Positions 1 to 20,260 of a stretch of DNA of 22,825 nucleotides are shown in pieces. How positions within the stretch are numbered: position 1 is the first letter of the stretch; each line of letters begins with the position of its first letter. Source of the stretch: a virus; IMG/VR virus record IMGVR_UViG_3300013233_000173, positions 1 to 22,825 of that record; one strand, written 5' to 3'. The position numbers and the translations under genes were made by a program. The notes under the pieces were generated by a model, which worked only from the letters and a program-made list of their open reading frames with translations, did not search any database and was not told where the DNA came from.

Positions 1-459
1 GACAAATATAAGGGTGACATCCTAAAAATCGTGTATCGATCGTCCTGGGAACTTATGGTTCTCCAGTGGTGCGACAAATCAAAAGATGTGAAGACTTATT
101 CGTCTGAAGAGACTATCATACCCTATATTTACGACGTCGACAACAGGCAACACAGATATTTTGTCGATTTCAAGATAACGTTCGCGGACGGCAAAACGAT
201 ATTGGTTGAGGTCAAGCCAAAAAAGGAAACGGTTCCGCCAAAAAAATCTAAGAACAAGAACCGGTATCTGACGGAAAGTCTGACATTCGTGAAAAACCAA
301 AACAAGTGGGAGGCGGCAAAGAAATTCACCAAGACGAAAAAGTGGGAATTTCAAATCTGGACCGAAGATACGCTCAAAAGCATGGGAATAATGAAAGCAA
401 AGAACCCTTATCCGAAGATGAAACCCCTAAAGAAAAAACCACTAAAATCTAATAAATAG
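1..459 (+). CDS. 4: Head completion nuclease, T4 gp4-like (5' end outside window)
   Basis: The frame is open from base 1. The GTG at 31 looks like an internal Val codon, because the upstream residues DKYKGDILKIVYRSSWE match the usual gp4 pattern (KYKGD, then I-YRSSWE). The gene is therefore cut by the window edge. In T4, gp4 acts at the end of head assembly, and family members carry a TnsA/restriction-nuclease-like fold. Supporting residues are YRSSWEL, a WCD step, the SEE..IPY segment, the FVDF acidic position and the EVKPK stretch, which together fit a D...E-x-K nuclease core. The C-terminal 40 residues are very Lys-rich, as expected for a protein acting on packaged DNA. It is the first visible gene of a + strand late gene run. 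The family call is confident; nuclease activity is inferred from the family. Confidence 0.85.
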   Translation, partial: DKYKGDILKIVYRSSWELMVLQWCDKSKDVKTYSSEETIIPYIYDVDNRQHRYFVDFKITFADGKTILVEVKPKKETVPPKKSKNKNRYLTESLTFVKNQNKWEAAKKFTKTKKWEFQIWTEDTLKSMGIMKAKNPYPKMKPLKKKPLKSNK

Positions 460-486: not shown

Positions 487-1071
487 ATGTCAAATTATTT
501 CGAGAGACTTGCCGCAGAAGCTTTCAGAGCTGGCGTTACTCCTAGGACAAAAGAATCATTAGCTTGGTTCAGGCGGCGTTCCCACAAGATGAACTCCCTA
601 AACCGAGAATCCTTGCTTATGGAAAAACCTTTGATTCGTACAAAAAATGAAATCGTAGGTACGATGAATTTTTTCTGGTACGACCCGAAGCATAAAGATA
701 CACTCCCATACTATGACCGGTTTCCTTTGATTATCGTCGTTGGACCTGCCACAGATGGGTTCTATGGAATAAACATGCACTATTTGCCGCCTCTTCTCAG
801 AGCAAAACTATTCGACGGGCTAATGCGCATAACGAACAATAAACGATTCGATGAAACTACCAGATTTAAGGCAACCTATGGCTTCCTAAAAGGGATGAAG
901 TCCTTACGATATTTCAAACCCGCCTTCAAGCACTACTTAACGGCCCACGTTCGGTCGCAGTTTTCCACGGTTTCGGCAACGGAATGGGAAATCGCAATAA
1001 TGCTTCCAGTCGCAGATTTCAAGAAATCAAGCAGATCGAACGTATACAGAGATTCAAGAAAGAACATCTGA
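487..1071 (+). CDS. Conserved T4-superfamily virion assembly protein (possibly gp2-type)
   Basis: A 194-residue protein. Its centre (about residues 58-110) has a conserved block I associate with T4-superfamily phages of marine and alphaproteobacterial hosts: NFFWYDPK, LPYYDRFPL and GINMHYLPP. The rest is basic, with an Arg/Lys-rich C-terminus. From memory, homologues are sometimes labelled DNA end protector (gp2), and T4 has gene 2 next to gene 4, but I do not see enough to fix that name. A baseplate gp53 assignment does not fit, because the T4 gp53 N-terminal pattern is absent. The ATG at 487 follows an AAAGAAGA Shine-Dalgarno-like stretch. The stop at 1069-1071 is two bases before the next ATG. 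Lacking a clear role, it is best described as a conserved late structural or assembly gene. Confidence 0.6.
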   Translation: MSNYFERLAAEAFRAGVTPRTKESLAWFRRRSHKMNSLNRESLLMEKPLIRTKNEIVGTMNFFWYDPKHKDTLPYYDRFPLIIVVGPATDGFYGINMHYLPPLLRAKLFDGLMRITNNKRFDETTRFKATYGFLKGMKSLRYFKPAFKHYLTAHVRSQFSTVSATEWEIAIMLPVADFKKSSRSNVYRDSRKNI

Positions 1072-1073
1072 AA

Positions 1074-1625
1074 ATGACATACAGAATAGAAGACCTAAAG
1101 GGAGAAATATCCAAGGGACAGGGTATAGCAAAAGCTAATATCTATCGGGTCTTTCTTCCGCCCATAACAGGGATATCAACGAAAAGTCTTGACGCCCTAT
1201 GCAGAAGTGTAAACATGCCGGGAAAACAAATTCTGACATCTGAAAAGGTCATAGGAACGATATCTCAAAAGATTCCTTGGGGGTTCGCGAACGATGATGT
1301 TAATATGTCGTTTATTGGTCTTAATGACTTCGGGGTAAGACGTTATTTCGAGGCCTGGCACCGGATGATCATAAATCATAACGCGGGTCACACGGTAAAT
1401 TACAAAAACACGTTCGAAAGAGACGTGACAATAGAACATGTTGACTCTCTCAATAACGTCCAATACTCGATCACGCTTCTTGGGGCTTATCCAGTTCAAT
1501 TATTGGATATCGGGTATTCTGCAGAACCCGGATCTCAGGTTAATATTGGAGTGTCGTTAACGTATACACGATGGATATGGAATCCCTCAAAATCTAAACA
1601 TACCCGGTTTGAATCCGCGGATTAA
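1074..1625 (+). CDS. Tail-tube-fold protein (gp19/gp54-like)
   Basis: A 183-residue protein. I chose the ATG at 1074, giving MTYRIEDLKGEIS, rather than the in-frame ATG at 984, which would overlap the upstream gene by 88 bases and adds a basic N-terminus resembling nothing. The start lies two bases after the preceding stop. The pattern of an N-terminal ANIYRVFLPP strand, a RSVNMPGKQ loop, IPWGFANDD, W.....NH, a VTIEH strand, YPVQLLDIGYS and a final SLTYTRW strand is typical of the contractile-tail tube fold shared by T4 gp19, gp48 and gp54 (including the common N..P.G..I and Y....W signatures). Its place next to gp4, gp26 and gp51 relatives suggests a tube or tube-initiator role in the baseplate. 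The tube fold is likely; which of the three T4 proteins it corresponds to is uncertain. Confidence 0.7.
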   Translation: MTYRIEDLKGEISKGQGIAKANIYRVFLPPITGISTKSLDALCRSVNMPGKQILTSEKVIGTISQKIPWGFANDDVNMSFIGLNDFGVRRYFEAWHRMIINHNAGHTVNYKNTFERDVTIEHVDSLNNVQYSITLLGAYPVQLLDIGYSAEPGSQVNIGVSLTYTRWIWNPSKSKHTRFESAD

Positions 1626-1637
1626 CAAGGAATTATT

Positions 1638-2348
1638 ATGCTTTTACCCATACTGAATGCTACACCAAAATATGAAATGAGAGTGCCGTCGACGCAGCTG
1701 ACGGTAAAATTTAGACCATATCTTGTCAAAGAAGATAAAATAATTCTTCTTGCAGGAGAGAGCAATGATCACAAGGCGATCATGGACGCTGTTGTTTCTA
1801 CCCTAGCAGCGTGTATTGACGGAGATTTTGATACAAAAACGCTAACAACGTTCGATGTTGAATATCTATTTGCGAAAATTAGAGCAAAATCGGTCGGCGA
1901 AACGGCGGATGTCCTTATGCGGTGCTCTGAGTGTTCAGAATACACTGAAGTCAAAGTCAATATCGACGAAATATCCGTGAACATTCCAGAAGGTACGAAT
2001 AAAATACAAATAACGGATCAGGTCGCCGTTCAATTGAAATGGCCGACGTACTCTAGTATATCAGACGATTCCGAGCTGTTGAACGATAAAAAATCCGAAA
2101 CGTCGACCATAAAGCTGCTCGCACATTGTATTGATAATATATCAACTGAAGAAGAGATATGGAAAGCATCTGATATCTCGAAGGACGAAATTTCCGAATT
2201 CATAGATTCCATGACTGCAATACAGTTTGAAAAGGTTAAGGCGTTTGTCGACAGCATACCAGAAATCGAAAAGGACATAGAATTCAAATGCGAAAAATGC
2301 GGAAAAGATAACAAGACAACTCTCAAGGGATCATCTGATTTTTTTTAA
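1638..2348 (+). CDS. 26: Baseplate hub subunit, T4 gp26-like (T4_baseplate family)
   Basis: A 236-residue protein of the T4_baseplate family (PF12322). The N-terminus LPILNATPKYEMRVPST and the block RPYLVKEDKIILLA are the usual opening; TFDVEYLFAKIRAKSVGE (about residues 71-88) is the most conserved part. Two CxxC pairs are present, C96/C99 and C218/C221, which could together bind a zinc ion. In T4, gp26 belongs to the baseplate hub assembly pathway. The start has a good AAGGA Shine-Dalgarno six bases upstream. The zero-frame stop at 2346-2348 follows directly after an eight-T run, and the -1 frame continues into a gp51-like segment. The gene may therefore make a short and a frameshifted long product, like tail assembly chaperones. 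The family call is firm. Confidence 0.88.
   Translation: MLLPILNATPKYEMRVPSTQLTVKFRPYLVKEDKIILLAGESNDHKAIMDAVVSTLAACIDGDFDTKTLTTFDVEYLFAKIRAKSVGETADVLMRCSECSEYTEVKVNIDEISVNIPEGTNKIQITDQVAVQLKWPTYSSISDDSELLNDKKSETSTIKLLAHCIDNISTEEEIWKASDISKDEISEFIDSMTAIQFEKVKAFVDSIPEIEKDIEFKCEKCGKDNKTTLKGSSDFF
2339..2346 (+). promoter_or_regulatory. Slippery sequence for -1 ribosomal frameshifting
   Basis: Eight consecutive T residues end the gp26-like gene. The zero-frame codons are GAT TTT TTT TAA, so the heptamer T TTT TTT (2339-2345) allows both tRNAs to slip back one base and keep full pairing, after which TTA (2345-2347) is read. This is the X XXY YYZ form of a bacterial/phage -1 site, set directly before the stop. 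A five-pair stem is possible downstream (TCGTC 2370-2374 with GACGA 2386-2390), but it is weak. A sequencing error in the homopolymer is the main alternative. Confidence 0.72.
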
Positions 2349-2530
2349 TATGTCTTTCTCATGATAGCATCGTCGAACACTACAAGACGAATTTTCAATT
2401 GATGCAATTCCAACACTATTCATTGTACGATATTGAAAATATGATACCATGGGAAAGAGAAATTTATCTTAGTATGTTATTAGATCATCTCAAACAAAAA
2501 GAACTAGAAAATAATGACAGACAACACTAA
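2345..2530 (+). CDS. 51: gp51-like baseplate hub assembly segment, made by -1 frameshift
   Basis: In the -1 frame relative to the gp26-like gene, 61 codons run open from the T tract to a TAA at 2528-2530. The segment contains HYKTNFQLMQFQHYSL then YDIENMIPWEREIYLSMLL, which matches the short gp51-type protein that follows gp26 in T4-superfamily phages (typical core: ENMIPWER-IY). There is no ATG, GTG or TTG with a Shine-Dalgarno at its beginning; the first in-frame ATG, at 2402, falls inside the conserved block. Production as a gp26-gp51 fusion of 297 residues is therefore the simplest reading. It overlaps the start of the next gene (2514) by 17 bases. T4 gp51 is described as a catalyst of hub assembly. 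The match is clear to the eye; the fusion is inferred. Confidence 0.78.
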   Translation, partial: LICLSHDSIVEHYKTNFQLMQFQHYSLYDIENMIPWEREIYLSMLLDHLKQKELENNDRQH

Positions 2531-4700
2531 ACAGCTTCGGCAAATAGAAGAGACCTTAAAGCAAAGTGTCTCAATATCGAAACGAACAGGAAACGATATT
2601 TCGTCTCTTAATAGGAGTCTGCAAACTTTTATAAAAAATCAGAAAACGATTTCTGATCGAGAGGCGCTTAACGCCAAAGAAGCGAGAATCGAGAGAAAGC
2701 CCTCAGGGACAAGTTCAAATAAATCGTACAGCGCTTCAGGATCTTCGGGTGGGTCTAGAGTAAAAACAACGGCAAAACTAGGGCTGGGAGCGTTCGTTGT
2801 TCCATATGCTCTTGACGCGGCTGGTAAGGCATATCAAGGAACAGTTGGGCTTCTTGAGAGAATTCACCAAAATACGTATCAACGATCGCTCAAACGGGAT
2901 CTAGGCGCCTATGGTCAAGGAAAATTAGACTCAAAATCTATTGCCAAGCACAAGGAAAAGGTAGACCAAGAACGGATAGACGGATATAAGTTTAGAACGC
3001 CTCGAGTTACACACGTTCCAGGAAATGCTTTTAATCCTAAGGGATACGATCGTGAACGTTACCCCGACAGACCAATGTATATGCAGAATCCAAATCCGGT
3101 TTCTCCTATGGACTATGGACCACAGCTGCAAAAACAATCATTTCAGATAAATAATGGATTTAGCGGCGCGGGATATTCTATAACCTTGGCGGGGCTATCA
3201 GGAAAAACCGCCGATCAACTTGAATCCTACAGAGACCGGATAGCGTCAACTGGAAAAACGCTCAGATTTACCCGTAGAAGTATAATGAAACAGTTCTCGG
3301 AAAAATACGATACTCTAAATAGACTCATTGAACTCGAAAATGATCCAACAATTAAAGCCAATATAGAGGCTGAGTTGTCCCAACTGGCATCCGACGAGAA
3401 GAGATTCATTCTTGGAAAATATTCTGACGTGGATATGCAAACTATAGCAAAAAGCATGGCTAAGGATAATGTGAGCTTGTCGGACCGGCTTCGATCAGCG
3501 TCTGAGTCCCTAAAAAAGCATGGATTAAAAATAAGCTCTAGGGTTAACGGAAAAGCAAGAAATCTCGCCAACAGAGCGATAATGGAAACAGATCCGGTAA
3601 AACGGAATGCTCTGTTCGATGAAGCAAATGCGCTTCTGGCATCAGACAATGATAGAATACATGGTAGAATTTCACCGAAAACAATGGGTTCAGTTGATCC
3701 GTTGCTAGAGGATGCCAATCCTATAAAAAACGTTAGAACATCTGTACCAGTCCAAAATTCAACGCACCTGACTAACGCCGTTCCCGAGGGTAATGCTCCT
3801 GTATCCTCGGTGAAAACCCAAAAACGTTTTAATACCTCTAAGCCCTTGTCGGTTTTTCCGGAAAAACCGCTGATACTTACGGACTCCCAGAGAATAAAAC
3901 CAAAGAGAGCGCCAAAAAGATCGGCGGCGCATTATCGAAAAAATCTAGGTAATGCAAAAACCGAAAGTTCCGCGATAAGCAGATTTACGACAAAGTTTCT
4001 ATCCAATCCAATTACAAGAACGATAATCAAAGGCATAGCTATCCTTGGGACGGTTGGAGATGCCTATATGGTATCGTCATTTGGATGGGATAAATTATCG
4101 AACACCCTAATGATGGGAAACGGCGAATTCCATCCCGATGAATTATTCTTTAAGTACGAAAATGAAGCTTTCGCTGCCGCGTACAGGTTCGACTACAAGA
4201 GGGCGGCCGAATTAGGCGGAAAGGCGGTTTTCTATTGGGACCAGATTCCAGAGAAGTATAGAGATGGGCTGTTCGAAAAAGGATTCAAATTGGACACATC
4301 TCTATATACGGATCCGTCTGTGTGGGAATATATGGTGACTAATGATAAAAGCTTTTTCCTTCCGAGCAGGGATAACAGAAAAGAGTTTGAATTTAAACAA
4401 TATGGAAAATCTAACTCAGATGGATCAATATCTAGGCCAAATCCGAATCCAGTAAAAATGTCGCATAATCCATATATCATTCCGCCCAAAGCGCAGAATT
4501 ACGGAAGTTCGCCTAGAATGATGCGATCCAATTCTAATACCGGAAAGTTACAAACTCTTGATGCCTTAAACTCTAATCTGGAACAAAGTAACTCTACAAT
4601 TGTCATCGCTCCTCAGAATAACATGTCAACATCGACGAATTCTAACAGCCTGAATATGAACGCAAATCCTGTACCATCTACGATGGATATCGCGAGATGA
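2514..4700 (+). CDS. Large tail/baseplate structural protein, possible tape-measure role
   Basis: A 728-residue protein I do not recognise by family. The first 60 residues are helical and charged (MTDNTKQLRQIEETLKQ), followed by a Ser/Gly-rich linker (residues 63-80) and a hydrophobic stretch at about 86-114. The middle (230-350) is rich in charged helices. A second hydrophobic stretch lies near 497-523. The C-terminal 60 residues are Asn/Ser-rich with IVIAPQNN. In T4, the genes after 26 and 51 encode hub proteins and the gp29 tape measure, so position and composition allow a tape-measure or hub-associated role, but no motif proves this. The start overlaps the gp51-like frame, and the stop overlaps the next ATG (ATGA). 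Its C-terminal part resembles that of the following gene. Confidence 0.55.
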   Translation: MTDNTKQLRQIEETLKQSVSISKRTGNDISSLNRSLQTFIKNQKTISDREALNAKEARIERKPSGTSSNKSYSASGSSGGSRVKTTAKLGLGAFVVPYALDAAGKAYQGTVGLLERIHQNTYQRSLKRDLGAYGQGKLDSKSIAKHKEKVDQERIDGYKFRTPRVTHVPGNAFNPKGYDRERYPDRPMYMQNPNPVSPMDYGPQLQKQSFQINNGFSGAGYSITLAGLSGKTADQLESYRDRIASTGKTLRFTRRSIMKQFSEKYDTLNRLIELENDPTIKANIEAELSQLASDEKRFILGKYSDVDMQTIAKSMAKDNVSLSDRLRSASESLKKHGLKISSRVNGKARNLANRAIMETDPVKRNALFDEANALLASDNDRIHGRISPKTMGSVDPLLEDANPIKNVRTSVPVQNSTHLTNAVPEGNAPVSSVKTQKRFNTSKPLSVFPEKPLILTDSQRIKPKRAPKRSAAHYRKNLGNAKTESSAISRFTTKFLSNPITRTIIKGIAILGTVGDAYMVSSFGWDKLSNTLMMGNGEFHPDELFFKYENEAFAAAYRFDYKRAAELGGKAVFYWDQIPEKYRDGLFEKGFKLDTSLYTDPSVWEYMVTNDKSFFLPSRDNRKEFEFKQYGKSNSDGSISRPNPNPVKMSHNPYIIPPKAQNYGSSPRMMRSNSNTGKLQTLDALNSNLEQSNSTIVIAPQNNMSTSTNSNSLNMNANPVPSTMDIAR

Positions 4701-5800
4701 AAACATTCAGAGACGTACTAGATCATCTGAAGGTCTTCATCGCCGAGCAGGTAAAGGTTCAAATTCTTATACAGGAATTGGTGACGACCCTGAAGAAATT
4801 CCTGGAAACCTTTTTTAGGAAATATAAAGCAAAAGCGCTAACCCAAGTAAAGGTAAAAGATCGAGGAGTGGTCGATTATAAAACAAAAACAATCCGGAAA
4901 AGACGTAAAAACGCAAAATCTAAACCCTATATAAAAAAGCGGTCAAGCAAAGTCGCATCAATAATTAAGTATGGAATAGCCTTATTTCCAAAACGGGCTC
5001 TAGGTATTGCAATGTTTGCCCTGAGAAAATTATCTCTACCGATTACAACCGCGATCGCAGCAACTGAAATATACAGAGGAATAATGAGTCGCCGCCATGA
5101 GATGATGAGTTTAGAGAAAAAGGGATTAACGAAAAAGGAAGCGTATCTCATTGTATCTAAACGGCACGACGCCAAAATAGTAAAACGAGCAGAACAAATA
5201 CCGTTTCTGAAGTCGCTAACGTCCACCCTTCAGGGACTATCGGATTCCGTAAGAAAAAAATTCGGAATTAGAAGCGATCGAGCCATTATGTCCGATTCAG
5301 TAAATAAAAGGATGCACAAGAAATACGAATTCAAAGATGGGATCCCGGTAATAACAAAGGGATCTCTGTCTGATACCCTTCTTGAAGCTACTCGTATTGC
5401 GGAGGAATACGCAAAGGTTGGTAACTACGCAAAGGCCGCTAAGATCATGAAAACCTACGATGTATTCGGACCGTCGATATCGACTGGAATGACCAGACCG
5501 GAAATGTCGAGCCCTGGGTATTGGGAAAAAATGTATCCACCCGATTTTAGGACAAAAACAAAAAGACCGGTTCCAAACAAAATTCGGTACACCGTTCCAG
5601 CAAAAAAAGAGAGACCAAAGTTTTTAATCAATGGTCCCTCTAATGCTACAAATATCAAGTCTATAAACTATGATAATAGCATATTCTCTAAGTCTAAAAA
5701 CCTAATCATCGTGCCGCGTAACAACATCAGAAAATCGGTAACTTCGACGACAGAGAATATATTCTATCCTAATGAACAGACCTCGAACGTGATGATCTAA
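4697..5800 (+). CDS. Basic tail/baseplate structural protein, related to preceding gene
   Basis: A 367-residue protein with no recognised family. Residues 1-45 are helical, 46-90 extremely Lys/Arg-rich, and about 97-130 form a hydrophobic to amphipathic stretch (PKRALGIAMFALRKLSLPIT). The C-terminal half repeats features of the upstream protein in the same order: an amphipathic AKAAKIMKTY-type helix, a P-G-Y-W-E-K-M step (S-V-W-E-Y-M upstream) and a terminal strand IIVPRNN (IVIAPQNN upstream) followed by a Ser/Thr/Asn tail. Translation is probably coupled through the ATGA overlap at 4697-4700, as there is little Shine-Dalgarno. The stop TAA (5798-5800) overlaps the stop of convergent gp32. 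It is likely a late virion component; the exact role is unknown. Confidence 0.5.
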   Translation: MKTFRDVLDHLKVFIAEQVKVQILIQELVTTLKKFLETFFRKYKAKALTQVKVKDRGVVDYKTKTIRKRRKNAKSKPYIKKRSSKVASIIKYGIALFPKRALGIAMFALRKLSLPITTAIAATEIYRGIMSRRHEMMSLEKKGLTKKEAYLIVSKRHDAKIVKRAEQIPFLKSLTSTLQGLSDSVRKKFGIRSDRAIMSDSVNKRMHKKYEFKDGIPVITKGSLSDTLLEATRIAEEYAKVGNYAKAAKIMKTYDVFGPSISTGMTRPEMSSPGYWEKMYPPDFRTKTKRPVPNKIRYTVPAKKERPKFLINGPSNATNIKSINYDNSIFSKSKNLIIVPRNNIRKSVTSTTENIFYPNEQTSNVMI

Positions 5801-16177: not shown

Positions 16178-16561
16178 TTATTTAGTTCTTCGAGATTTCT
16201 CTTTCTCTTCGATGACTCTAAATAGACCAGAGAGAGGATATTTATGAACAGAATCACCAACCAAGACGCAGTACATATTTCCCTTTGTATACGAGTTCAA
16301 AGCGTCTTCATATACAATTGGAAGACTGGTTTCGTTTCTATGAATTTCAATCCTAATAGCACTCGCTAACTCCCGTACTGGGTCTTTGGGTTCGAGGGCG
16401 TAGGCGATTATGTTGGACCATTCGACTAGCTTAGAAAAGTCTTTGAACTCAATCCCCACGTCTACCTCCCCATTTCTAGTCCGCCAAATCCGCTTCCCCA
16501 TCGTCCCATCAGGCAGGTCAGGTTTTACGCCATTGCAGGCGATCCAAGTTAGGTTTTTCAT
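16178..16561 (-). CDS. MKNL-WIA family protein, copy 1
   Basis: A 127-residue protein. Its first half matches the 92-residue protein at 18211: MKNLTWIACNGVKP against MKNLFWIAVNGVNP, DGTMGKRIW against RGTMGYRIF, and WSNIIAYALEPKDPV against WTNVIAYALEPKEPA. Small phage proteins with a W-I-.W-NGG opening and an IIAY segment are common and their function is unknown. The C-terminal half differs from copy 2 and carries MYCVLVGDSVHKYPLSGLFRVIEE. The start overlaps the preceding small frame by ATGA, with GGAG eight bases upstream. Both copies are placed two cistrons after a VDAPG-family gene, so the pair was probably duplicated as a block. Confidence 0.65.
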   Translation of the reverse strand: MKNLTWIACNGVKPDLPDGTMGKRIWRTRNGEVDVGIEFKDFSKLVEWSNIIAYALEPKDPVRELASAIRIEIHRNETSLPIVYEDALNSYTKGNMYCVLVGDSVHKYPLSGLFRVIEEKEKSRRTK

Positions 16562-16743
16562 GACTCATTCTCCATAGATTTGATGACTTGGCGCAGGCGG
16601 ATCCAACTAAGTTTATTTGCGACTTGGGTAGGTTTCCCCACATCTCGGGGAAACCTACCATCCGAATTACAGAAGATACTCCGGCGCTTTTTGACTTTTT
16701 CCGACAAGGGTTTTAACCCTACCGAATCGGGACCGGACCTCAC
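16558..16743 (-). CDS. Doubtful small frame between VDAPG and MKNL genes
   Basis: A 61-residue frame starting at a GTG (16743) that overlaps the VDAPG gene stop (GTGA). A GAAGAG stretch stands before it at the same relative place as the GAGGAG used by the 40-residue gene of the second block. An upstream in-frame TTG at 16773 is possible. The sequence (VRSGPDSVGLKPLSEKVKKR) is basic, without a membrane span, and contains a strong hairpin at 16627-16659. It ends with ATGA overlap onto the MKNL gene, which supports translation, but nothing in the protein is recognisable. It may be a decayed relative of the 40-residue membrane protein or mostly untranslated leader. Confidence 0.35.
   Translation of the reverse strand: MRSGPDSVGLKPLSEKVKKRRSIFCNSDGRFPRDVGKPTQVANKLSWIRLRQVIKSMENES
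16627..16659. repeat. Perfect 13-bp inverted repeat (hairpin)
   Basis: Arms GGTAGGTTTCCCC (16627-16639) and GGGGAAACCTACC (16647-16659), loop of 7 bases. It lies inside the doubtful 61-residue frame, about 66 bases before the MKNL copy 1 start. A second small stem (AGGGTT 16707-16712 with AACCCT 16715-16720) lies close by. No U tract follows on the - strand. Confidence 0.85.
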
Positions 16744-17147
16744 GTCGGTCTCTTCACCAGACTGCCACTCCAATCACAAGTACCAGGGTCTAGACTGGCT
16801 AGAGCATCAGCGTAGGTAAACGCCCCACCATCGAACCACATCGCGCGACCAGCTACGGGCGGGTGTTCGTAAAGCCTTACCGAACCACCCTTATCCTTCG
16901 CCATAGCGTTCCATTTATCGGCAATATGGTCCCAATTAACGGACGGTTGCGTGAGTGGCTTGGCTTGCAGGGGGAATAGGTCAAAGTCGATTGCAAGCGC
17001 ACAAGTACCATTACTATCCCATCCGCACTGCAACTCCCCAATCCTCCCATGCACAGGGTAATCCCCCGGCGCATCCACACAGTAGATCGTCACGCGCTCG
17101 TCAGGGTGTTCCCGCGTCCCGTAGTCTCCCTTGAGTTCAATCTTCAT
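16740..17147 (-). CDS. VDAPG-family protein, copy closest to 18605
   Basis: A 135-residue protein. YGTREHPDERVTIYCVDAPG then YPVHGRIG (about 9-37) is nearly repeated by the 18605 gene (YGTREYPENRVVLYCIDAPG, FPIHGRVG). The two also share FPLQ/VPLQ, PSVNWD....DKWN and the end GTCDW..SLV.RP. They are full-length paralogues. Related short phage proteins with a TRDGR...CTDAPG...V.G opening are frequent; the function is unknown. Composition is unusual: the two rows I counted here (16921-16980, 17041-17100) have 55 and 62 percent G+C. The start follows GGGGA by seven bases. It belongs to the unit from the promoter at 18175-18203. Confidence 0.7.
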   Translation of the reverse strand: MKIELKGDYGTREHPDERVTIYCVDAPGDYPVHGRIGELQCGWDSNGTCALAIDFDLFPLQAKPLTQPSVNWDHIADKWNAMAKDKGGSVRLYEHPPVAGRAMWFDGGAFTYADALASLDPGTCDWSGSLVKRPT

Positions 17148-17171
17148 CGAATTATCCCCATAATATTATCG

Positions 17172-17270
17172 TCAACCGCGATAGTTCCTATAATGTAAAA
17201 AAACAGCTAGAAACGCTCCAACTAAGACGCCAAGAGTAAAACTGTAGACACATTTATGTTTAATCTCCAT
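17172..17270 (-). CDS. Very small single-span membrane protein
   Basis: A 32-residue frame: MEIKHKCVYSFTLG, then VLVGAFLAVFLHY and a basic end YRNYRG. One membrane span (about 8-26) is flanked by positive residues. The ATG at 17270 has GGGGAG ten bases upstream, inside the preceding gene, which it overlaps by 11 bases. A longer frame from 17366 would overlap that gene heavily. The arrangement (VDAPG-type gene followed by a tiny membrane protein) recurs at 18486-18608. The function is unknown; small toxins, regulators of membrane enzymes or lysis helpers are possible. Confidence 0.55.
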   Translation of the reverse strand: MEIKHKCVYSFTLGVLVGAFLAVFLHYRNYRG

Positions 17271-17643
17271 TGTGGAAAAACTCCCCATTTCGTTGAGCTG
17301 TGAAGTGCCAAGGCTTAACCGCGACTCCACACTTCCATTGACACAGCGCGATCGTGGCCCGAACAATCATCCGCAAATCATCTTGCTGCGCGATGGTGAT
17401 ATGATCCAAATTCCCATCTGGGTTTTCCCATCGACAAATCTCCCTCAGCTGGCGCTTCTGTTTGGCGATGGGGTGTTCGCCGTCGTATGTTCCGTTCTTC
17501 CGGCGGCGAAAAAGACCACCCTTAGACGACGCCGCAATCACGGGTAAGGGGCCGGGAGCATCAACACAGATTACCCGAACTGGTCCCCCGTTTACTTCGT
17601 ACTCGTCAAAGCCTTCTGTTGGGCGTATATCAACCATCTTCAT
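17260..17643 (-). CDS. Divergent VDAPG-family protein
   Basis: A 127-residue protein. The N-terminal part YEVNGGPVRVICVDAPGPLPVIAAS (15-39) has the same core as the 16740 and 18605 proteins; after it GLFRRRKNGTYDGEHPIAKQKRQL differs. The C-terminal half is helical and Arg/Trp-containing (IVRATIALCQWKCGVAV) and not shared. The function is unknown. The start has GGAGGG eight bases upstream and overlaps the preceding gene by 14 bases; its own end overlaps the 32-residue membrane gene. It is likely an older duplicate of the same phage family. Confidence 0.6.
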   Translation of the reverse strand: MKMVDIRPTEGFDEYEVNGGPVRVICVDAPGPLPVIAASSKGGLFRRRKNGTYDGEHPIAKQKRQLREICRWENPDGNLDHITIAQQDDLRMIVRATIALCQWKCGVAVKPWHFTAQRNGEFFHNGD

Positions 17644-17977
17644 CGAACTGGCCCTCCGCGATTGTTAGGGTGTGTTTTGTGCGTGAGGTAGGGCTGCCCT
17701 TTAGTAACGTAGGCTTATACCCACAGATATGCCGTGACCCGTCTGCGTACATAGTCACCCATACCGTAACATCGCGGATCTTGGGTTTGTCAAATAGTCT
17801 TACACCCACGTCGGGCGCGAAAACATAAGCCCCGTCCTTAGTCCACTTCATCATGCACCCCTGCATATCCCCGTAGAGGAGGCCGTTGTGGAGATAAGCC
17901 CTTGCGAGCCGTCCGTCACGCGTGACGTATTCCCGGACTTCGCCATCGCCTGGCGGCGTGAATTTGCGATCAACCAT
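17630..17977 (-). CDS. TRDGR-type divergent member of the VDAPG array
   Basis: A 115-residue protein. VREYVTRDGRLARAYLHN then GDMQGCMMKWTKDGAYVFAPDVGVRLF (14-62) resembles the general phage pattern (Y.TRDGR.ARI....  ..G.I.G....W..DG.......  DL) of which the VDAPG genes are variants. A second half, IRDVTVWVTMYADGSRHICGYKP, adds further strands. It is therefore probably the fourth, most divergent homologue in the cluster, though the pairwise match is weak. The start has a clear GGAG in GGAGTATAGTAAAATG. It follows the 54-residue gene by four bases and overlaps the next gene by 14. Confidence 0.55.
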   Translation of the reverse strand: MVDRKFTPPGDGEVREYVTRDGRLARAYLHNGLLYGDMQGCMMKWTKDGAYVFAPDVGVRLFDKPKIRDVTVWVTMYADGSRHICGYKPTLLKGSPTSRTKHTLTIAEGQFDEDG

Positions 17978-17981
17978 TTTA

Positions 17982-18146
17982 CTATACTCCTATATCTTGA
18001 CACGATAAGCACATATCAGCAATCTCTTGGACTGAGGCGTACTCTCCATCGGCTATGGAATCTTTAACAAGCGCGAATGCTTTATCTGTTACTCTAACGC
18101 CGAGACGTTTAAGCTCTTTGAGTTCTTGAATTACATCGTTTTCCAT
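17982..18146 (-). CDS. Small helical protein of unknown function
   Basis: A 54-residue protein from the ATG at 18146 (MENDVIQELKELKRLGVRVT), with AAGGA nine bases upstream. An upstream in-frame ATG (18206) would lie across the promoter. It has the pattern of a two- or three-helix protein: VTDKAFALVKDSIADGEYASVQEIADMCLSCQ, with a CLSC pair near the end. The second part resembles a small DNA- or protein-binding helix set but cannot be named. It is the first gene after the promoter at 18175-18203. Confidence 0.6.
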   Translation of the reverse strand: MENDVIQELKELKRLGVRVTDKAFALVKDSIADGEYASVQEIADMCLSCQDIGV

Positions 18147-18174
18147 TTGATCATATCCTTTGTTTCTTTCATAC

Positions 18175-18203
18175 AGTCTATCACAAATAAAAACTAAAGT
18201 AAA
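18175..18203 (-). promoter_or_regulatory. Early-type promoter for the GC-rich VDAPG unit
   Basis: On the - strand: TTTACT (18203-18198), a 17-base spacer, TAGACT (18180-18175). It is a weaker -10 than the others. It starts eight bases after the stop of the 92-residue gene and leads to the 54-residue gene. Confidence 0.65.
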
Positions 18204-18210
18204 CAAGTTT

Positions 18211-18489
18211 TTACACTGAGTCCTCTACGGCTCTGATGGCGCTAAGTAAATTCGCCCGGGCAATTGCGTTAGTTTCATATCGATTCTCTAAGGCTAGCTT
18301 CACGACCTCGACCAAAGCGAGGGCTGGCTCTTTGGGCTCAAGGGCGTAGGCGATTACATTTGTCCAGCCGTCTCGGCCCGACAAGTCAGTCAGATGGCCC
18401 ACTCCGTGTTCGAAAATTCTATACCCCATAGTTCCTCTTGATAATTTAGGATTCACCCCATTCACGGCAATCCAAAATAGGTTTTTCAT
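18211..18489 (-). CDS. MKNL-WIA family protein, copy 2
   Basis: A 92-residue protein, a paralogue of 16178-16561 over the N-terminal 55 residues (see MKNLFWIAVNGVNP, RGTMGYRIF, WTNVIAYALEPKEPA). It is shorter than copy 1 and ends with helices ALALVEVVKLALENRYETNAIARANLLSAIRAVED. GGAG lies eight bases before the ATG; it overlaps the 40-residue membrane gene by ATGA. It is the last gene of the unit that begins at 21059-21087. The function is unknown. Confidence 0.65.
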   Translation of the reverse strand: MKNLFWIAVNGVNPKLSRGTMGYRIFEHGVGHLTDLSGRDGWTNVIAYALEPKEPALALVEVVKLALENRYETNAIARANLLSAIRAVEDSV

Positions 18490-18608
18490 TTGTTCATCTC
18501 CGTCGCATATCCTGTGTGTATTTTTGCTGCGAATTTGCCTAGGTTTGCGGGGGATATTAGGAACCCCACTAAGGCGAGAAACAACACAAAGCCGATTATA
18601 TCTTTCAT
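18486..18608 (-). CDS. Small single-span membrane protein (40 residues)
   Basis: A 40-residue frame too short for usual gene callers: MKDIIGFVLFLALVGFLIS, then PANLGKFAAKIHTGYATEMNK. One membrane span (about 4-19) and a basic tail. GAGGAG stands six bases before the ATG. It overlaps both neighbours by ATGA (start with the VDAPG gene stop, end with the MKNL gene start), a strong sign of real translation. The position matches the 61-residue doubtful frame of the other block and recalls the 32-residue membrane gene at 17172. The function is unknown. Confidence 0.6.
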   Translation of the reverse strand: MKDIIGFVLFLALVGFLISPANLGKFAAKIHTGYATEMNK

Positions 18609-19012
18609 GCTGGTCTCCTCACCAGACTATCTTTCCAATCGCATGTTCCCTCTTTTATGCCGCGTATGATTTCTCCTCTAACGCAATGTTTACCAGTCCA
18701 GAATTGTGTGTAGGAAGTAGGGCAGTCGGAATAGAAAAATAACATCCCCAGTGCGTTCTTTACCAGATAGTTCCATTTATCGTCAACATAGTCCCAATTA
18801 ACCGACGGCCGAGTTTTCGGTGGGACCTGCAGGGGAACTAGTTCCAACGCGGTGCCGTATACTCGTGGCACGCCATCCGAACGCCAAGACCGTAATTCCA
18901 AGCCAACACGTCCATGTATAGGGAACGCGCCTGGCGCGTCGATACAATAGAGCACGACACGGTTTTCTGGGTATTCCCGGGTTCCGTAGTTTCCGTCTAG
19001 TTTAATCAACAT
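18605..19012 (-). CDS. VDAPG-family protein, copy 2
   Basis: A 135-residue protein, the same length as its paralogue at 16740-17147. Shared blocks: N-terminal YGTREYPENRVVLYCIDAPG, HGRVG, PSVNWDYVDDKWN and EGTCDWKDSLVRRP. Between these the two differ freely (about 105-122), so they diverged some time ago. The function is unknown. GGGAGAG seven bases upstream supports the ATG at 19012, four bases after the metallophosphoesterase stop. It starts a block of VDAPG gene, small membrane gene and MKNL gene. Confidence 0.7.
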   Translation of the reverse strand: MLIKLDGNYGTREYPENRVVLYCIDAPGAFPIHGRVGLELRSWRSDGVPRVYGTALELVPLQVPPKTRPSVNWDYVDDKWNYLVKNALGMLFFYSDCPTSYTQFWTGKHCVRGEIIRGIKEGTCDWKDSLVRRPA

Positions 19013-19535: not shown

Positions 19536-19889
19536 TTAAATAACGTCATCTTCTTCTACAACATATCCGAGATTTTCGTTAAATTCCGGATGGTGGGACA
19601 TAAGAGCTGTTATGTTCTTCATCGTGAGGCACATAAAAGCATCAGAAATACTATGATCTATGAAATCGTGTTCACGGCCAATTTTAGCAATCAATTTATT
19701 AATTTTTTCTTTAACATGATCTGATTTATCAATGAGTTCTCGGTATAATTCAATATCATGCCCCAGAGAATACGTATTAGAAATACTCCTTTTTTCTAGA
19801 TACGACACCATCGAATCTAGAGATCTCGCATAAAATTTAACCATTGCATGATTATCTTCATCGTACTTCACCATTGAATATATTTTCAT
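19536..19889 (-). CDS. Tandem-duplicated small protein, copy 1
   Basis: A 117-residue protein I do not recognise. It aligns along its length with the next upstream gene: MKIYSM, the SLDSMV.YL..RS step, a LYR/LYS helix with NKSD/DKSD, L.AKI..E..FI, AF...TMKNI..LM..HP..NEN.GY. Charged and helical, no membrane span. The start shares a repeated leader with copy 2 (AAGGACTAATTCTGATG against AAGGATTAATTCCGATG). The position within the unit suggests both are expressed together from the promoter at 21059-21087. The function is unknown. Confidence 0.7.
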   Translation of the reverse strand: MKIYSMVKYDEDNHAMVKFYARSLDSMVSYLEKRSISNTYSLGHDIELYRELIDKSDHVKEKINKLIAKIGREHDFIDHSISDAFMCLTMKNITALMSHHPEFNENLGYVVEEDDVI

Positions 19890-19894
19890 CAGAA

Positions 19895-20260
19895 TTAGTC
19901 CTTTCCTTGCACTAATTGAATCTCATTGACTGAATATCCGATGTTTTCGTTGTATTTTGGATGAAAATACATAAGATTGTTTATATTTTTCATGGTGATA
20001 TCGATGAATGCTGAAGAATTTGTACGCTCAATAAAATATGACTCTTTGCGAATTTTGGCGTTCAGTTGACGGATTATAGAATATTCATTGTCGGATTTGT
20101 TCATGATAGCGCTATATAGTTTAACGTTATGCGTTAAAACGATCAATTCTTCGTTACTTCTATTTTTTAGATACTTCACCATCGAGTCTAAAGACTCCGA
20201 GTAAAACTCTGGGGGTAGTTGACGCTTTCCGTCGTGACGAGACATTGAATATATTTTCAT
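19895..20260 (-). CDS. Tandem-duplicated small protein, copy 2
   Basis: A 121-residue paralogue of 19536-19889 (MKIYSM at the start, YSESLDSMVKYLKNRS, HPKYNENIGY near the end). The two keep the same order of helices, but about half the residues differ, whereas the DNA around the two starts is almost identical (30 of 32 bases; 19872-19903 against 20243-20274). That conserved strip covers the start region and may itself be under selection. The function is unknown. Confidence 0.7.
   Translation of the reverse strand: MKIYSMSRHDGKRQLPPEFYSESLDSMVKYLKNRSNEELIVLTHNVKLYSAIMNKSDNEYSIIRQLNAKIRKESYFIERTNSSAFIDITMKNINNLMYFHPKYNENIGYSVNEIQLVQGKD

Follow-up and report, generated by a model that had tools for sequence, protein, structure and literature searches.

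Architecture of the gp26-like locus

The window analysed here is the whole stretch of 22,825 bases of the uncultured, metagenomic virus record IMGVR_UViG_3300013233_000173, the first 5.8 kb of which form a T4-type tail block coding for head closure, a DNA end protector, a tail-tube-like protein, a gp26-like protein, a C-segment and two large ORFs. The gp26-like gene is located 3' of the tail-tube-like ORF (phrog_45) and 5' of a candidate tape measure ORF, and the relevant features are listed below.

984..1625, + strand: tail-tube-like protein, upstream context (phrog_45, E 1.6e-22)
1638..2348, + strand: gp26-like gene, the short chaperone form (TAC-N), 236 aa (PF12322, phrog_150, model residues 5-96 matching solved tail chaperones)
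2325..2330, + strand: Shine-Dalgarno-like AAGGGA, candidate upstream stimulator (anti-SD duplex about -4.4 kcal/mol; conserved position)
2336..2338, + strand: -1-frame TGA bounding the shift window (sequence)
2339..2345, + strand: slippery heptamer T TTT TTT, inside the T8 run 2339-2346 (conserved T TTT TTN)
2346..2348, + strand: gp26 zero-frame stop TAA, immediately 3' of the heptamer (sequence)
2345..2530, + strand: -1 extension, predicted long-form C-part (gp51-type), 61 codons plus stop (phrog_634; alignment to the T4 gp51 C-terminus)
2514..4700, + strand: next ORF, 728 aa, candidate tape measure (position)

The upstream ORF belongs to PF12322 (T4_baseplate, E 1.8e-59) and its 3' end reads GAT TTT TTT TAA, the T8 run at 2339-2346 being the sole 8-base run of T or A in the window. 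A -1 slip at 2339-2345 leads to 61 extra codons (2345-2527) closed by a stop at 2528-2530, and since the T run is immediately preceded by a -1-frame TGA (2336-2338), such a slip is possible solely within the run. An earlier note on this DNA had described the T8 run, the gene end and the 61-codon extension exactly as they stand in the sequence, and the fusion that it put at about 297 residues is computed at 297. PHROG hits to the -1 segment are phrog_634 ('baseplate hub assembly catalyst', E 2.3e-22) and columns 231-281 of phrog_150, gp26 itself matching columns 6-232 directly before them; a Pfam search with the C-part of the window gave no match. The gp26-like protein (1638-2348) carries two CxxC pairs, CSEC and CEKC, which may bind zinc and are absent in several relatives, e.g. 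P-HM2.

The large tail gene said to follow the junction is present as a large 3' ORF, and its designation as tape measure is positional: neither Pfam nor PHROG gave a match for the 728-aa ORF (2514-4700), no similarity to T4 gp29 was found, and the genes occupying its place in some relatives display weak tape-measure similarity. The ORFs at 2514-4700 and 4697-5800 both lack a family match; in relatives their place is taken by genes that are peptidase-like or weakly similar to tape measures. Elsewhere in the window, at 16178-19012 and 19536-20260 on the - strand, several small ORFs resemble duplicated pairs:

16178-16561 with 18211-18489, - strand: look-alike ORF pair
16740-17147 with 18605-19012, - strand: look-alike ORF pair
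19536-19889 with 19895-20260, - strand: look-alike ORF pair

Relationship to T4 gp26 and gp51 and predicted fold

T4 gp26 aligns with the N-part alone, while T4 gp51 (249 aa, a single ORF) aligns with the N-part and the C-part straight across the junction. The two T4 proteins are themselves homologous, gp26 corresponding to the N-part and gp51 to N plus C, and the homology of the N-part to gp26 and of the C-part to the gp51 C-terminus is the arrangement that marks a T4-type chaperone. On these alignments T4 gp51 is the natural one-frame counterpart of the predicted fusion. The segment previously called a gp51-type core is indeed homologous to gp51, but its 61 codons represent just the C-part of the T4 protein and not the whole. 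T4 possesses two separate genes, whereas the phage of the window has one gene and a predicted -1 shift; with a one-frame gp51 beside a separate short gene 26, T4 does not need a frameshift. T4 gp51 is needed for assembly, yet the finished particle does not contain it (PMC3004832).

The AlphaFold2 model of the gp26-like protein (pLDDT 92.5) superposes on 3FGX with a Z of 7.9 (86 aligned residues, rmsd 3.9) and on HK97 gp13, 2OB9, with a Z of 7.4 (85 aligned, rmsd 3.3), values which alone are middling, the next structural match having a Z of 2.4. Both structures have been described as tail assembly chaperones (PMC9603447). Taken alone, a Foldseek search of the PDB with gp26 fell short of significance, with HK97 gp13 at rank 13 (E 3.2), and it was the re-alignment that singled out both chaperones; PDB sequence searches with the N-part and C-part profiles returned nothing significant. 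The fold common to HK97 gp13 (2OB9) and Rbstp2171 (3FGX) covers about 86 N-terminal residues of the gp26-like protein, which differs from them in being longer (236 aa) and in having an additional domain as well as the two CxxC pairs. The C-part is modelled as a small helical unit (pLDDT 85), for which no significant match among PDB folds was obtained when it was searched alone. The best explanation of these models and alignments is that the gp26-like protein and the fusion would constitute the short and long members of a tail assembly chaperone pair comparable to lambda G/GT. The suggestion that gp26/gp51 is the T4-superfamily counterpart of G/GT is thereby upheld by the fold match to solved chaperones, and by published work discussed below.

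Conservation of the slippery heptamer

We collected loci from viral contigs and annotated phages and analysed 108 nonredundant junctions, a comparison that the earlier note had proposed. The patterns that yielded the largest locus set (80) lie in the N-terminal half of gp26 and carry no bias toward the junction. A zero-frame T TTT TTN is found near the gp26 stop in 102 of the 108 loci, with the C-segment in the -1 frame in every one of them (102/102) and the last base N being T in 51, C in 41, A in 8 and G in 2. The heptamer lies 0 or 1 codon before the gp26 stop in 99/102 loci. In two others (L046, Pelagibacter phage Mosig, and L085) it lies 8-9 codons 5' of the stop, so that the zero frame continues into the region where the C-part begins. 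Beyond the stop, variability tracks the codon positions of the -1 frame, which is the sole open frame in all 102 loci.

Codon bias was evaluated on the 98 loci that had not been found by the T-run pattern, with the expectation calculated from the codon use of each locus. The first slippery codon is TTT in all 98 (64.8 expected) and the third base of the preceding codon is T in all 98 (57.4 expected); the combined log10 P is about -20 for the TTT codon and -25 for the preceding T if the loci are assumed to be independent, which they are only in part. These figures indicate that the slippery heptamer is kept by selection, and kept in the zero-frame register.

A 19-base junction pattern run against all viral contigs gave 13 matches, 11 of which coincide with a relative of gp26 that shares just 30-44% identity with gp26 of the window. 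The best gp26 identity among phage records is 41%, placing the phage of the window far from its sequenced relatives, and the identical T8 has independent occurrences in other assemblies as well as in C48C1, a sequenced phage. The exceptions are Ackermannviridae and their relatives (L031, L050, L053, L137-L154), in which the -1 C-part is kept with no canonical heptamer, gp26 ending for instance in GAG ATT TTC ATT TAA or CTT TTT CAA TAA; these junctions weigh against the frameshift explanation.

Sequences flanking the predicted slip site

A Shine-Dalgarno-like purine block is located about 9 nt upstream of the heptamer, with GG at -11/-10 in 99/102 loci, where the anti-SD pairing energy peaks at a mean of -5.7 kcal/mol. 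The best upstream anti-SD pairing averages -5.84 against -4.80 (sd of the mean 0.12) in synonymous recodings. No -1-frame start codon was found at a fitting distance from the block, which consequently resembles the internal Shine-Dalgarno stimulator of dnaX. Conservation of the block exceeds the synonymous expectation, but the glycine encoded by GG is itself conserved, and for this reason we regard its assignment as a dnaX-like stimulator with moderate confidence. Among IS elements an upstream stimulator of this kind has been estimated for 56% (PMC5009743).

A conserved downstream pseudoknot or hairpin was sought across the loci and not found. There is a modest average excess of downstream structure (mean z about -1.3 versus -0.2 to -0.4 in controls), with values between -1.14 and +0.49 for the window itself, and a recurrent stem at +28..35/+42..49 has a mean pairing probability of about 0.15.

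Alternative explanations for the junction

Most phage records annotate the C-part as a separate small gp51, whose translation would then depend on re-initiation or on coupling close to where gp26 stops. Relatives in which gp51 has its own start and Shine-Dalgarno were sought, and in a few of them, phi-ST2 and Moby, an ATG does occur 4 codons beyond where the heptamer starts, yet both retain the heptamer. On the other side, ATG, GTG and TTG are all absent from the first 12 codons in 46/102 C-segments, the first ATGs of the C-segments lack a Shine-Dalgarno (mean anti-SD energy 0.05 versus -4.16 kcal/mol at gp26 starts) and conserved C-part residues lie upstream of the candidate internal starts. 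The window itself behaves as claimed in the earlier note, with no start signal and with conservation that begins before the first in-frame ATG: this ATG (2402, with a TTG at 2399) is 3' of the onset of the conserved segment and no Shine-Dalgarno was found there. A separate gp51 also leaves the heptamer and the fixed -1 frame unexplained, and we consider it quite improbable. The C-part has been annotated from an internal ATG in P-HM2 and C48C1 and left unannotated in S-CAM4; in the phage records L023, L024 and L025 it is given as a gene of 30-35 codons from an internal ATG or is lacking; annotations of this type are probably wrong, on a wide scale.

Two other explanations concern the T run itself. 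RNA polymerase might slip on it and produce mRNA with bases gained or lost, for which a T8 is available in 36/102 loci, including the window; however, 51/102 loci have six T's only, bacterial polymerase slippage has been described on runs of nine (PMC5009743), and the selection fits codon re-pairing, with T TTT TTN in register, and not run length. With just six T's at half of the loci, tandem tRNA re-pairing is the better explanation, and transcriptional slippage, which we judge very unlikely, was rejected. Homopolymers are moreover error-prone and the window derives from a metagenomic virus record, so that a misread run could in principle hide a gene of one frame; against this, the same frame change recurs at more than 100 diverged loci, the junction is common to independent contigs and no gathered locus has both parts in one ORF. 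Comparison of so many independent loci refutes a sequencing error, to which we assign a practically negligible probability.

Discussion

The conserved heptamer, the codon bias, the absent starts and the constant -1 frame all support the programmed -1 frameshift that the earlier note had put forward, and we hold it highly probable that a short and a long version of a tail assembly chaperone are made from this locus by -1 ribosomal frameshifting. Comparison across loci and proteins brings out the heptamer signal, the selection acting on it and the correspondence of the domains with T4 gp26/gp51 and with the solved chaperones. Against a frameshift we count the weak and unconserved downstream structure and the report that E. 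coli shifts less readily on U_UUU_UUU than on A_AAA_AAG (PMC5009743).

The course of events that we infer in vivo, from the slippage and its efficiency to the part played by the upstream block and the partners bound by the products, would be as follows. The majority of ribosomes would translate gp26 and stop at the TAA at 2346, leading to the short form. Some would slip by -1 on U UUU UUU (2339-2345), where both Phe-tRNAs can re-pair, aided by the upstream Shine-Dalgarno-like block and perhaps also by the stop codon right after the site, and would then read 61 more codons to give a long form of 297 aa with the additional helical C-part. If the pair works as lambda gpG/gpGT does, its N-part would cover the tape measure protein, and tail tube subunits would be brought in by the minor C-part. 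The lambda scheme, with a 30:1 ratio, the N-part on the tape measure and the C-part recruiting tube subunits (PMC5009743), may serve by analogy as a working model for the phage of the window.

The comparison with lambda gpG/gpGT is made without demonstrated sequence similarity; the shift sequence differs, and the Shine-Dalgarno-like block and the stop 0-1 codon past the site belong to loci of the window type. The slip had been called exactly lambda-like, of which the -1 slip stands, while the layout, a Shine-Dalgarno-like block ahead of U UUU UUN, is closer to E. coli dnaX, where the heptamer of the -1 shift is likewise homopolymeric and likewise preceded by an internal Shine-Dalgarno. The heptamer of dnaX is however A AAA AAG, in place of a U run with no conserved hairpin, and its shift yields a short product whereas that of the window would yield the long one.

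The abstract of the 2022 study of Vladimirov et al. reportedly says that several T4-like groups share a conserved frameshift and that in T4 itself genes 26 and 51 are separate. The study is reported to have identified the T4-like chaperone genes (Vladimirov, Gautam, Davidson 2022, Virology 566:9-15, doi 10.1016/j.virol.2021.11.003). It is cited in PMC10885494 for T4-like phages with a short gene and a separate fused gene, and PMC12846349 attributes to it the polyT slippery sites of TAC-N genes in T4-like phages. The idea of a chaperone pair with a frameshift is thus already published for T4-like phages, and our finding is an independent rediscovery. The Vandenendeviridae TAC locus (phage Adele, PMC12846349) likewise has a conserved -1 shift, in which the end of TAC-N carries the T-rich motif GTTTTT; the phage family and the motif both differ from those of the window.

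Whether a dnaX-like cassette, with a Shine-Dalgarno about 9 nt before U UUU UUN, extends broadly across T4-like phages, together with three routes of the superfamily to the protein pair, seems to us evenly balanced. If true, these routes would be the -1 shift, gene duplication as in T4, and the noncanonical junction of Ackermannviridae. Very probably, many pairs recorded as 'baseplate hub gp26' and 'gp51 catalyst' are one frameshifted chaperone gene, split or shortened in annotation, and the loci gathered here make up a large collection in which the way phages control the short:long ratio of their tail chaperones can be studied by comparison.
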